The notes under the pieces are model-generated. The model was not told the origin of the DNA, made no database searches, and worked only from the letters and a program-made list of their open reading frames with translations. A stretch of DNA of 36,489 nt from Sulfurovum sp. UBA12169 (lineage in GTDB: Bacteria > Campylobacterota > Campylobacteria > Campylobacterales > Sulfurovaceae): the NCBI GenBank assembly GCA_002742845.1, contig DLUH01000002.1, positions 341 through 36,829 of the forward strand, in the 5' to 3' direction. This document shows positions 32,497 to 36,489 of the stretch, in pieces. A program made the position numbers and the translations under genes. The first letter of the stretch is position 1; each line of letters opens with the position of its first letter.

Positions 32497-33387
32497 TTAA
32501 AGCAAATTTTTCAAATCATCCAGATCAAACAAAAGCAAACCTTCATCTTTGCATTGTAAAAGCTCATTGGAAAAACCGTCTTTGGAGAACAGAGCATAAG
32601 TGTTTACATCAAGTCCTGAGCGTACGGCTTTTGCTTTGAGTTTAGTCAGTTCGTTTTTACATACTTTTCTGTCTTTATATTTGCACTCCCCCAAGATAAG
32701 CTTCTCATCATCCGTTACAGCCAAAATATCAAATTCACTATCCCAATTCCAATAACTCCCGCTGCTTTTAAGCGGTGCATGATCTTCATAATGCTTTACC
32801 AAAAGCGCATCGCAAAGCTGTTCATACACCAAAGAGCGCAAACGCTCATAATGATTTTGAAAATTTTCCATAAACCGTTCGCCTTTGCCGCAAGCAAGCT
32901 CCTGCCTGTAGTACTCTACAAATCCAAACCAAAAGCGCATAAAAGGCTGCACAAACCGAAGCTTGTCTTGTATACGATAGGCTCTAAGTTCTTTTTTAAT
33001 CTTATGTTTTGGATGAATACGCAAAGGTGTTTCTCTGGATATTTCAAGCTTGAGAATATTTAAATCAAGCAAATCTTCTATGATTTTTTCGCCTGCAGCC
33101 TCACTCAGTCTGGCTTTTCTCAATACGCTATAGAGTTTGCCGTCTCCTCTTGCTGTAGCCATCAAGATCTCTTTGTAAGGACTTTCCAAAAGATAGCTCG
33201 GTCTTATAAGAGATTCAAAAATATGAAAATTTTGTACAAAATTGGATTCGACCATAGAAAAAATATCATCGAAATAGTCTAAAACGATGCTTTCTTCTAT
33301 ACCGCCTAAAATTGAAAAATATTCTAAAGCCTGCTCTATGGAAAGATAGTTAAAAAAACGGTGAAATGTTTTAAATGAAGTTTTAAT
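32497..33387 (-). CDS. DUF234-type protein, probable ATT start
   Basis: The ATG-initiated frame (from 33255) gives 252 aa, but the frame is open further upstream. The added 44 codons (KTFHRFFNYLSIEQALEYF... then SILGGI) continue the expected fold. The best ribosome-binding site, AAAAAGGG (33393-33400), sits 5 nt before an ATT codon at 33385-33387, giving 296 aa. The C-terminal part (YWNWDSEFDILAVTDDEKLILGECKYKDRK...ELTKLKAKA) is the DUF234 domain, with a restriction-endonuclease-like E/D...ExK arrangement. No Walker motifs are present, so this is the ATPase-less version. Function is unknown; a nucleic-acid role is an inference from the ExK-like core. It is convergent with mltG. Confidence 0.75.
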   Translation of the reverse strand: MKTSFKTFHRFFNYLSIEQALEYFSILGGIEESIVLDYFDDIFSMVESNFVQNFHIFESLIRPSYLLESPYKEILMATARGDGKLYSVLRKARLSEAAGEKIIEDLLDLNILKLEISRETPLRIHPKHKIKKELRAYRIQDKLRFVQPFMRFWFGFVEYYRQELACGKGERFMENFQNHYERLRSLVYEQLCDALLVKHYEDHAPLKSSGSYWNWDSEFDILAVTDDEKLILGECKYKDRKVCKNELTKLKAKAVRSGLDVNTYALFSKDGFSNELLQCKDEGLLLFDLDDLKNLL

Positions 33388-33400: not shown

Positions 33401-33457
33401 AATTTAGTTAGCCCGACACTCGAATAATTTTAACATACTTTTAGTTGAATTTCTATA

Positions 33458-33474
33458 TGATTAATAATTAAACA
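33458..33474. promoter_or_regulatory. 17-bp dyad upstream of the NtrC-like gene
   Basis: TGATTAA-TAA-TTAAACA matches the perfect dyad before amtB at 15 of 17 positions, with the same 7-3-7 layout. It overlaps a possible -10 (TATGAT, 33456-33461) about 30 nt before the regulator ATG, a position suited to autorepression. The region is AT-rich, so chance similarity is possible. Confidence 0.45.
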
Positions 33475-33488
33475 ATAAAAAGAATAAT

Positions 33489-34223
33489 ATGGAACAATTT
33501 TATACCAAATCTGAGCAAATACAAAATATTATCAAAGGGCTCAATCTTACAAGAACGCTTTTTGTCTCCTCTATTATCCTAGGAGAAGCGCATACAGGAA
33601 AAAAAACATTGGTACGTACTCTTTTTCCTGACACAACAACTGTTTCCGGCACCAATCAAAAAGAGGTGGAAGACGCACTTAAGGAGTATGATGAGCTGAT
33701 TATCACTGATTTTGAAAAATTAAACAATCAAAATAAATTTCAATTTGACAACAAACGCGTTATTGCTGTAGCCAATCACACAGGGAACCAAGAGATCATT
33801 GATAAGCTTTTTGCATTTATCTACATGCTGCCTCCTTTAAGAGACAGAACGGAAGACGCCCGCTATATGAAAGCACTTTTTTTTAAAGAAGCCTGCACGG
33901 TACTGATGAAAGATGAACATTCCCTCTCTTTGGAAAGTATCGCGACGGACCTTTCTGACAACAACCAAAGTCTCAAAAAATCTGTCTACGAACAGGTAAT
34001 CTACCGCAACATGCACCCCAAAGAGATTGAGCAGGTTTTATACACCTATCTCTTGGAGCATTTGGAAGGAAATAATGCCTATAAAGAGTATCTTGGGCTC
34101 TATGAAAAACCTCTTATTGAAGCAGGACTAAAAAAATTCAGATCACAGCTTCAGCTTTCACAGGTTTTAGGCATCAACAGAAATACTCTGAGGAAAAAAA
34201 TATATGAATACCGTATCGATTGA
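33489..34223 (+). CDS. Degenerate NtrC-like protein: AAA+ remnant plus Fis-type HTH
   Basis: Protein of 244 aa. A Walker A-like loop (GEAHTGKKT, 32-40) and a weak Walker B-like strand (DELIITDFE, 68-76) are followed by PPLRDRTEDARYMKALFF (115-132), which is the signature PPLRxRxED region of sigma54 activators. The C-terminus (LSQVLGINRNTLRKKIYEY, 223-241) is an unmistakable Fis/NtrC helix-turn-helix. There is no receiver domain, no GAFTGA loop for sigma54 contact, and the AAA+ core is shortened to about 110 residues. It is therefore probably a DNA-binding regulator that cannot remodel sigma54 holoenzyme. It overlaps the next gene by 20 nt and lies just upstream of amtB. Relation to NtrC is seen; the regulatory target is inferred. 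Confidence 0.8.
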   Translation: MEQFYTKSEQIQNIIKGLNLTRTLFVSSIILGEAHTGKKTLVRTLFPDTTTVSGTNQKEVEDALKEYDELIITDFEKLNNQNKFQFDNKRVIAVANHTGNQEIIDKLFAFIYMLPPLRDRTEDARYMKALFFKEACTVLMKDEHSLSLESIATDLSDNNQSLKKSVYEQVIYRNMHPKEIEQVLYTYLLEHLEGNNAYKEYLGLYEKPLIEAGLKKFRSQLQLSQVLGINRNTLRKKIYEYRID

Positions 34224-34905
34224 TTTTAAATCATTTGTTGAATGGGACAATAGTCCTTTCGTTCTTTTCAATCATCATGGCAAAATACTTTACCTCAACA
34301 GTGCGGCGGAACTGCTTTTTGGCCACACTACCCCCAGAGAAATCTTTGATATTGCACTTTTTTATGCGCCGCAAAATTTTGGCTACAAGACCACTATGCT
34401 TTCTTTAAATTATGATGCTTTCAGTTTTTATGCCATTACCGTGGGATACGAAAATGAAGAACAAATCGCCATACGGCTTTACAATAAACCGCGCATCAAG
34501 CAAAACATTATACTTCATAAAGAAAAACTGATCACCACAGATATCAATATTTTACTCGAAGCCAATATCGCTCTTTTCAAAATAAAAAATAACAATCATC
34601 TTGAACTTTTTACAGACCAAGACATACCCCCTTTTAAAATAGACCAAAATAATTTCTCAAAACTCTTAAGAAAAGTAATGGATGCCTTTAGGTCATCGGA
34701 CTCTATTTTTATTGAGCTTAAACTTCTTATCGGTGAACATATTATTATAGCTGACAAAAAAGAGTCTATCGTAAAGCTGACAATAGAAGCAGGCAGCCGA
34801 TACCATGATGCCGATGAAGAGATCGTTGCCCTTACAACCAATACCCATATTGCATGCTCTCTTAAAGAACACGCTATTAGACTCGATATACCGTTAATTC
34901 GTTAA
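34204..34905 (+). CDS. Degenerate NtrB-like protein: PAS domain plus kinase-like tail
   Basis: Protein of 233 aa. Residues about 8-95 form a PAS domain (FVEWDNSPFVLFNHHGKILY then LNSAAELLFGH), as in the N-terminus of NtrB. Residues about 110-233 follow the outline of a histidine-kinase ATPase domain: TDINILLEANIALFKIK, a D-x-x-x-F-x-x-LLRKVMDAF in place of the N-box, and a final IRLDIPLIR like the closing strand of such domains. However, no H-box histidine is present, the N-box Asn is missing, and no DxGxG boxes are seen. It cannot be an active kinase by these criteria. The start overlaps the NtrC-like gene by 20 nt, implying co-translation and perhaps a protein complex. Confidence 0.72.
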   Translation: MNTVSIDFKSFVEWDNSPFVLFNHHGKILYLNSAAELLFGHTTPREIFDIALFYAPQNFGYKTTMLSLNYDAFSFYAITVGYENEEQIAIRLYNKPRIKQNIILHKEKLITTDINILLEANIALFKIKNNNHLELFTDQDIPPFKIDQNNFSKLLRKVMDAFRSSDSIFIELKLLIGEHIIIADKKESIVKLTIEAGSRYHDADEEIVALTTNTHIACSLKEHAIRLDIPLIR

Positions 34906-34966
34906 TGTATTTTTATGCAGAAAGCACTTCGTTGTTTTTCTTTTGGTAATTTTTTTAATTAGATAT

Positions 34967-34983
34967 TGATTAAAAATTAATCA
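34967..34983. promoter_or_regulatory. Perfect 17-bp dyad upstream of amtB
   Basis: TGATTAA-AAA-TTAATCA, two perfect 7-bp arms with a 3-bp spacer, 68 nt before the amtB ATG. Its 17-bp length equals that of classical NtrC sites, and its centre would lie about 50 bp upstream of a transcript starting after the TAGTAT box (35015-35020). It is a candidate binding site for the HTH protein encoded by the nearby gene. Confidence 0.55.
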
Positions 34984-35050
34984 CTTTTTGCATAAATACA
35001 ATCTTTATCCGTGTTAGTATTGTAAGGTAAATTATTTTAAAGGACGATAC

Positions 35051-36358
35051 ATGAAGTTCAAAGCTTTATCTCTCTTGACAGCATTTTTGCCTATTGCGGC
35101 ATTTGCAGAAGACAAACTAAATTCAGGTGACACCGCATGGATGATGATATCCGTAGCGCTTGTTTTTTTGATGACACCCGCAGGCCTGGCATTGTTTTAC
35201 AGCGGCATGACAAGGAGCAAAAATACACTTAACACATTTGCGATGGTTACAGGCGCTTTTATTCTCACTATGGTTTTATGGATTTTTGCAGGATACTCTA
35301 TTGCCTTTGGCACTGCATCGAATGCAATGATGCAAAATGTGGCCGGAGGATTGGGAAACATGATGCTTGAGGGCATCAAATGGACAGATTTGAGCGGATC
35401 ATATCCTACGTATGTTTTTGTTATTTTTCAAGGCACTTTCGCCGCAATTACCGTAGCTATTGCTTCGGGATCAGTCATTGGGCGCATGAAATTCTCTTCA
35501 TGGCTGGTATTTGTAGCGCTCTGGGGCCTTATGGTCTATGCCCCTATTGCACATATGGTTTGGGGAGGAGAAGGGGCATTGCTTTTTGATGAAGGCGCAC
35601 TTGATTTTGCAGGAGGGACCGTAGTACATATGAATGGCGGTTTGGCCGGCTTAGTACTTGCTCTCCTGGTAGGAAAAAGAACAGGTTACCTCAAAACTCC
35701 GATGAAACCCTACAGCGTCTTGCTCTCGGCAGCAGGTGCAGCACTGCTTTGGTTTGGATGGTACGGGTTTAACGGAGGTTCTGCATTTGGCGCAAATGCA
35801 GTTGCGGGTTTAGCCGTACTGACTACAACCGTTGCGGCGGCTGTTGGCGGTGTAACATGGATGCTGCTTGAATGGATTATTTTCAAAAAACCAACACTTC
35901 TTGGCATTGCTTCGGGTATTGTGGCAGGCCTTGTTGCCGTTACGCCTGCGGCTGGGTTTGTAAGTGCCGGGGGTGCATTCATTATCGGATCATTTGGCTC
36001 GATCATCGGGTTCTTTGGGGTGGTGTGGCTCAAAAAAAAGTTTGGGTACGATGACAGCCTTGATGCTTTTGGAATCCATTTCTTGGCAGGTCTTTGGGGT
36101 GCGATTGCAACCGGTATCTTTGCACTGGACGACAAAGATCTGTTATGGGACGGACCGCTCAAAGAAAGCAGCGATCGAATGCAGCAGATTTTTGTACAAT
36201 GCGAATCAGTCCTGGCAGTAGGTCTCTTTACGCTTATTGGTACCATTGTTGTTTATTTTATTGCATCGGCTATTACCGGCGGTGCCCGTGTAAATATTCA
36301 GACTGAAGAGATCGGCCTGGACGAAAGCATTCATGGCGAAAAAGCAATGAATTTATAA
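35051..36358 (+). CDS. amtB: Ammonium transporter AmtB
   Basis: Protein of 435 aa with a cleavable signal peptide (MKFKALSLLTAFLPIAAFA, 1-19) and 11 membrane segments. It conducts ammonium across the inner membrane as a trimer. Conserved residues are Asp185 in ALDFAGG, the twin pore histidines His193 (VVHMNGGLAG) and His343 (GIHFLAGLWG), and the aromatic WFGWYGFNGGS segment. The C-terminal tail (VNIQTEEIGLDESIHGEKA) is the part that binds the PII protein. AAAGGA lies before the ATG. The PII gene follows after 111 nt, the classical amtB-glnK pairing. The two NtrBC-like genes directly upstream suggest local control. Confidence 0.97.
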   Translation: MKFKALSLLTAFLPIAAFAEDKLNSGDTAWMMISVALVFLMTPAGLALFYSGMTRSKNTLNTFAMVTGAFILTMVLWIFAGYSIAFGTASNAMMQNVAGGLGNMMLEGIKWTDLSGSYPTYVFVIFQGTFAAITVAIASGSVIGRMKFSSWLVFVALWGLMVYAPIAHMVWGGEGALLFDEGALDFAGGTVVHMNGGLAGLVLALLVGKRTGYLKTPMKPYSVLLSAAGAALLWFGWYGFNGGSAFGANAVAGLAVLTTTVAAAVGGVTWMLLEWIIFKKPTLLGIASGIVAGLVAVTPAAGFVSAGGAFIIGSFGSIIGFFGVVWLKKKFGYDDSLDAFGIHFLAGLWGAIATGIFALDDKDLLWDGPLKESSDRMQQIFVQCESVLAVGLFTLIGTIVVYFIASAITGGARVNIQTEEIGLDESIHGEKAMNL

Positions 36359-36372
36359 TAACGGCATGAGAT

Positions 36373-36435
36373 GGCATGAATGCCTTAACCCTAGAGTCGC
36401 ATAAGCGATTTTGATAGGCACAATTCATTGTGCCT
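36373..36435 (+). promoter_or_regulatory. Three short hairpins between amtB and glnK
   Basis: In order: GGCAT-GA-ATGCC (36373-36384), TCGC-ATAA-GCGA (36397-36408) and AGGCACAA-TTCA-TTGTGCCT (36416-36435, 8-bp perfect stem). No T tract follows any of them, so they are more likely to be mRNA-processing, stability or regulatory stems than terminators. Confidence 0.5.
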
Positions 36436-36469
36436 CCATACTATACATCATCAACCAAGGAGTTGTTTT

Positions 36470-36489
36470 ATGAAAAAAATTGAAGCTAT
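36470..36489 (+). CDS. glnK: PII nitrogen regulatory protein, 5' end only
   Basis: Only the first codons are in the window: ATG then KKIEA, the start of GlnB/GlnK family proteins (MKKIEAII). A strong AAGGAG (36456-36461) lies 8 nt upstream. The position immediately downstream of amtB makes GlnK the most likely identity. GlnB versus GlnK cannot be settled from these residues. Confidence 0.8.

Follow-up and report, generated by a model that had tools for sequence, protein, structure and literature searches.

We analyzed a pair of overlapping genes, here called gene A and gene B, that lie in front of the ammonium transporter gene amtB of Sulfurovum sp. UBA12169. The window, meaning the whole stretch of DNA that was analyzed, covers 36,489 nucleotides (nt) of contig DLUH01000002.1. 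A and B, which derive from NtrB/NtrC, are the probable activators of ammonium uptake and glutamine synthesis throughout the free-living Campylobacterota. We give a probability of about 0.7 to a reading in which A works as a nitrogen activator with sigma70 and is held by B, GlnK probably being in control as it is in NifL-NifA. The wider claim is somewhat better than an even bet: an ancient two-protein Ntr switch in Campylobacterota, in which a GlnK-responsive pseudokinase B gates A at the sigma70 promoters of glnA, amtB-glnK and nitrate genes in free-living lineages. The DNA circuit, comprising the operator, its spacing and the predicted targets, is well supported by sequence comparison. Beyond this, we infer A as the binder, its activating effect, the B-A and GlnK-B contacts and the direction of the switch. 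The features of the locus are as follows.

33458..33474, no strand assigned: putative operator upstream of A, TGATTAATAATTAAACA, 1 mismatch to TGATTA-N5-TAATCA
33456-33461: predicted -10 of gene A, TATGAT, overlapped by the operator at 33458..33474
33489..34223, + strand: gene A, 244 amino acids (aa); degenerate NtrC-type (bacterial enhancer-binding protein, bEBP) AAA+ domain at about residues 1-174 and Fis/NtrC helix-turn-helix (HTH) at about 197-243
34204..34905, + strand: gene B, 233 aa; PAS domain at about residues 9-95 and degenerate histidine-kinase catalytic and ATP-binding (CA) fold at 108-233
34967..34983, no strand assigned: putative operator upstream of amtB, TGATTAAAAATTAATCA, perfect TGATTA-N5-TAATCA
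35012..35020, + strand: predicted extended -10 of amtB, TGT-TAGTAT, with the hexamer at 35015-35020, 40 nt from the operator center
35051..36358, + strand: amtB, ammonium transporter, predicted target
36470..36489, + strand: start of the PII gene (glnK), MKKIEAI..., which continues past the window end

The reading frames of A and B overlap by 20 nt, and both lie directly before amtB and the PII gene, just as an earlier note on this DNA had described them. The PII gene is presumably cotranscribed with amtB, and the amtB-glnK order is also seen in relatives.

Candidate operator and predicted promoters

The candidate operator is a 17-bp palindrome, TGATTA-N5-TAATCA, with a 6-5-6 layout like that of NtrC sites. 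The window genome (1.86 Mb) has only one perfect match, the site upstream of amtB. Eight sites with one mismatch were also found. One of these lies upstream of A, and most of the others are intragenic or next to genes with no clear link to nitrogen. The amtB-upstream site is conserved in most family loci although the flanking sequence is not. Variants of the site lie before amtB/glnK in most of the tested genera, and perfect or near-perfect sites are found there also in genera with A and B unlinked from amtB. An FNR/CRP-type box was considered and rejected by its spacing, since the site here reads TGAT-N9-ATCA and the spacer of an FNR box is N4.

A weight matrix trained on the family amtB sites only picked out sites upstream of glnA, most of them 72-82 nt ahead of the start codon. 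Of 24 genomes with A and B, 23 had a TG...CA site at glnA, compared to none of the three without them (Fisher p 0.0014, uncorrected for relatedness). This count takes in the TGTATA variant of genomes G046 and G053, found 74 and 68 nt before the start. In both of these genomes, TGTATA-N5-TATACA replaces TGATTA-N5-TAATCA at the A-side promoter (A/glnK or A/amtB) as well as at the glnA promoter (L065, L066, L166, L171). Among 270 control upstream windows, 13 had at least four pairs and a single one had TG..TA-N5-TA..CA. Further sites were seen upstream of nitrate-transporter-like and nitrate-reductase-like genes in G042, G050, G051 and G057, with functions assigned by eye from sequence. The nitrogen link, which the earlier note had drawn from gene order alone, has firmer support in a common operator: it stands before amtB and A and, in other genera, before glnA/glnK, including cases with A and B unlinked from amtB. 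As a separate observation, a protein family of 276-285 aa is encoded right behind the operator in G058 (L135) and between A and amtB in G050 (L067), and is a possible regulon member.

Transcription starts were predicted, and distances were taken from the site center to the best -10. This distance was 40-41 nt at 28 of 29 family amtB promoters, at 10 of 13 amt/glnK promoters elsewhere and at 19 of 24 glnA promoters. In two cases, both at glnA, it was 30-31 nt, which is one helical turn less. A center 40-41 nt from the -10 falls near -52, clear of the -10, and this is an activator position; the shift by a helical turn is as expected for activator contact. From this geometry, we infer that A would activate at the predicted amtB and glnA sites. 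Family sites at the promoter of gene A overlap the predicted -10 or lie after it, which suggests that A represses its own promoter.

Domains of A and B and the status of sigma54

The earlier note had described A as an AAA+ remnant joined to a Fis/NtrC HTH, with neither a receiver domain nor a GAFTGA loop, and profile searches and the predicted structure agree on this. The C-terminal HTH matched PF02954 over the cut-off (E 1.6e-6). A also matches the C-terminal part of the NtrC equivalog profile, and TIGR01818 (ntrC) was matched by all 49 aligned family members (best 8.6e-16). FlgR profiles were matched by only 15 of the 49 members and PF00158, the sigma54-activator AAA+ domain, by 16. In the AlphaFold model of A (predicted local distance difference test score, pLDDT, 90.7), residues 1-174 superposed on NtrC4, NtrC1 and PspF in a fold search (Z about 14, 170-172 aa, 2.7-2.9 Å), which upholds the proposed AAA+ ancestry. 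The AAA+ domain of A is about 65 residues shorter than the domains of these three proteins. All 49 members lack a receiver domain and begin with the AAA+ domain. The GAFTGA segment is absent from A: the stretch from Walker A to Walker B, where activators of this type carry it, has just 35-40 aa or so. The Walker-A glycines are invariant and the Walker-A Lys is kept in 47 of 49 members, whereas the Walker-B Glu is present in none; its position holds Phe or Ile in all 49, and the Asp is not conserved. The retention of Walker A and the loss of the Walker-B Glu suggest that A binds nucleotide without hydrolyzing it.

The PAS domain of B is weak by hidden Markov model, with Pfam PAS matched weakly by 19 of 50 members. 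The PAS fold is present in the model, and PAS residues P18 and N32 are invariant. In a fold search, the tail of B superposed on histidine-kinase CA domains, including that of NtrB (1r62; Z 14.4, 122 aa, 3.0 Å). A sequence-profile search of B against the PDB gave nothing useful, and the CA relationship was seen only by the fold search. The NR(II) (NtrB) profile, the sole specific kinase family found, was matched by five B members. The dimerization and histidine phosphotransfer (DHp) domain, or His domain, is absent from the B model. PAS ends at about 95 and CA begins at about 108, and the roughly 12 residues in between leave no room for it and form no DHp helices. The N-box is degenerate, its Asn column being Asn in just 6 of 50 members. 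The model contains one PAS and no H domain, while NifL has two PAS domains plus H. B corresponds to the PAS protein with a kinase-like tail, lacking the H-box His and N-box Asn, that the earlier note had outlined, and the match to NtrB 1r62 agrees with the HATPase ancestry expected for it.

The sigma54 gene rpoN (PF04552) was missing from the window genome, which is 99.97% complete, as well as from 33 of 36 other members of the genus; it was present in most other genera. No clear sigma54 activator was found in the window genome, where weak PF00158 matches fit Clp/FtsH-like ATPases by length and score. Most other rpoN-plus genomes tested had a single strong activator, in a frame of some 370-480 aa that resembles FlgR by its size. 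The missing receiver, GAFTGA and His domain, together with the missing rpoN of the window genome, support the proposal that A and B have lost the phosphorelay as well as the sigma54 contact.

Distribution and gene neighborhood

The closest named relatives are Sulfurovum and other Sulfurovaceae. A and B were found together in all 36 named family loci, and amtB was directly downstream in 26 of them. B was found in 52 of 60 relatives. Among 23 genomes from outside the genus, 19 had both genes and four had neither, and the two genes co-occur even where they are unlinked. In a sample of the phylum, clear B homologues were found in 44 of 150 genomes. Two large families, f10 and f13, had no clear B homologue among their listed sampled members, with marginal matches only in four f10 genomes. 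In these four, all of one genus (G105, G109, G142 and G143), 258-aa open reading frames (ORFs) marginally match B residues 77-195 (E about 5e-4) and are possibly decayed relatives or chance matches. Chance or decay was rejected as an explanation of ORFs A and B themselves, given that the two are conserved throughout the order and the A matches have no internal stops.

A conserved four-gene order had been anticipated in the earlier note. This part stood within the family, where A-B-amtB was seen in the 26 of 36 loci, and fell order-wide. In many genera, A lies in a tol-pal/fabD operon, between slyD and fabD and behind tolB-pal (L070-L080), and in many genera B lies directly behind rpoD (e.g., L055, L056, L063 and L064), with gene names given by eye from sequence. 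Since many genera have A and B at loci separate from amtB, gene order was judged insufficient as the main evidence. Several other families again show linkage to amtB or glnK (L050, L065, L066 and L067). GlnK was present in all 19 non-genus genomes with A and B, and a GlnD-like protein was found in every A/B-plus genome tested, the window genome included. Canonical GlnK and GlnD were absent from G045 and G048, both without A and B.

Several other genes near the locus and in relatives were noted. A second, distant ammonium transporter gene lies downstream of amtB-glnK, just past the window (G000:C2:37081-38196), and tandem amt genes recur in relatives. Open frames of 761-774 aa with ammonium transporter domains in G037, G040, G056 and G059 suggest fusion to a further domain. 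On the minus strand of the window, what the gene at 32497-33255 encodes of an ATPase-DUF234 protein is the C-terminal DUF234 part alone. Its frame is open to about 33420, upstream of the ATG, without an ATPase domain, and it looks like a truncated remnant.

Proposed mechanism, rival explanations and known systems

In the mechanism we propose, A and B are a reduced NtrB/NtrC descendant. A would dimerize on TGATTA-N5-TAATCA and recruit or activate the housekeeping (sigma70) RNA polymerase from about -52 at amtB-glnK and glnA, with no sigma54 remodeling. At its own promoter in the family, A would limit its own synthesis. B, composed of a PAS domain and a non-catalytic kinase fold, would hold or release A by contact, as NifL does with NifA, and would read the state of GlnK through the CA fold, the module bound by PII in NtrB and NifL. 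By analogy with NifL-NifA, control by PII or a PAS ligand through direct contact is plausible.

Several points weigh against this mechanism. The tolB-pal-slyD-fabD and rpoD settings of A and B are not obviously nitrogen operons, and the genus of G043, without A and B, retains GlnK, Amt and a GlnD-like protein. G042 has A and B plus sites at amtB and A, yet it has no glnA site. The glnA site of the window genome, TGATTATTTTTTGGGCA, is weak (3/6 pairs, position weight matrix p 0.013). A position of -52 is uncommon for well-studied activators, and related genomes are not independent samples. In addition, another regulator of the same distribution could own the operator.

This last point was weighed as an explanation in its own right, with A and B merely sharing the distribution of the true owner. 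The recognition helix of A was compared with the operator, and the two do not covary cleanly: position 232 differs in G046 and G053, but also in G050 and G047, which keep TG[AC]TTA. The unchanged operator in G050 and G047 is what such an owner would explain. We nevertheless consider one very unlikely, given that the site is found at A's own promoter in the family, tracks the presence of A and B at glnA and has an NtrC-like architecture to go with the NtrC-like HTH of A. If A does bind the site, it could instead repress amtB and glnA and be relieved under nitrogen limitation. Fis-like proteins can repress, and the site at the A promoter, on or after the -10, is in a repressor position. At amtB and glnA, however, the site is fixed about 40 nt before the -10 and clear of it, with the helical-turn shift in two genera, which makes repression there quite unlikely.

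The role of B can also be read differently. A may be a DNA-binding nitrogen regulator set by B alone, with B independent of PII and its PAS domain sensing a ligand, redox or energy state. The invariant P18 and N32 fit this reading, as does the position of B behind rpoD, not beside glnK, in many genera. We regard it as unlikely, since the CA fold, the site of PII contact in NtrB and NifL, is retained though its catalytic motifs are lost, and the tested A/B-plus genomes keep GlnK and a GlnD-like protein. That A is still controlled by phosphorylation through another kinase is scarcely credible, with a receiver in none of 49 A members and no His domain in B.

A and B are a derived variant of NtrC/NtrB and not members, because they fail the defining features (receiver, GAFTGA, His domain). 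They share with NtrB/NtrC the modules (PAS and CA kinase fold; AAA+ and Fis HTH), the predicted core targets, which for NtrC are glnA, amtB and glnK (PMC5343134), and the 17-bp 6-5-6 layout of the candidate operator; the E. coli NtrC site is the 17-bp palindrome TGCACCAnnnTGGTGCA (PMC8743547). They differ in the missing receiver, His/DHp domain and GAFTGA, the degenerate N-box, the half-site (TGATTA here compared to TGCACC), the frequent unlinking of the two genes and the lack of rpoN in the window genome. The NtrC proteins of R. capsulatus and Caulobacter also have GAFTGA deleted and act at sigma70 promoters, where R. capsulatus NtrC requires ATP binding but not hydrolysis (PMC10274813). A resembles them in its missing GAFTGA and kept Walker A (Lys 47/49, Walker-B Glu 0/49), and the Caulobacter targets are likewise glnA and glnK. 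In contrast to A and B, these systems keep a receiver, whose phosphorylation site is needed, and a normal NtrB, and the AAA+ deletion in A is much larger. NifL controls NifA, with GlnK acting probably on the GHKL domain (PMC8219145). A PAS and GHKL protein governs an AAA+ activator by direct contact in that pair, and the architecture of B and A is compatible with such an arrangement. NifL differs in its two PAS domains (FAD), H domain and ADP binding, and NifA in its GAF domain, GAFTGA and need for sigma54. FlgS/FlgR is the other NtrB/NtrC-type pair described in Campylobacterota (PMC2147049); FlgR is a full sigma54 activator for flagella, and A members match the ntrC profile more widely than those of FlgR.

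The genome of Arcobacter butzleri was reported to be without NtrB/NtrC homologues (PMC2147049), and a regulon survey covering NtrC omitted the epsilonproteobacteria since orthologues were absent (PMC5343134). No paper on the A/B pair was found in the open-licence literature searched. With a defined operator and predicted targets, the pair is a directly testable candidate for nitrogen control in Campylobacterota. If the proposed mechanism is true, a two-component system can shed phosphorylation and its sigma factor yet retain its modules, operator layout and targets. The pair would then also offer a minimal model of pseudokinase control over an AAA+ transcription factor, comparable with NifL-NifA.

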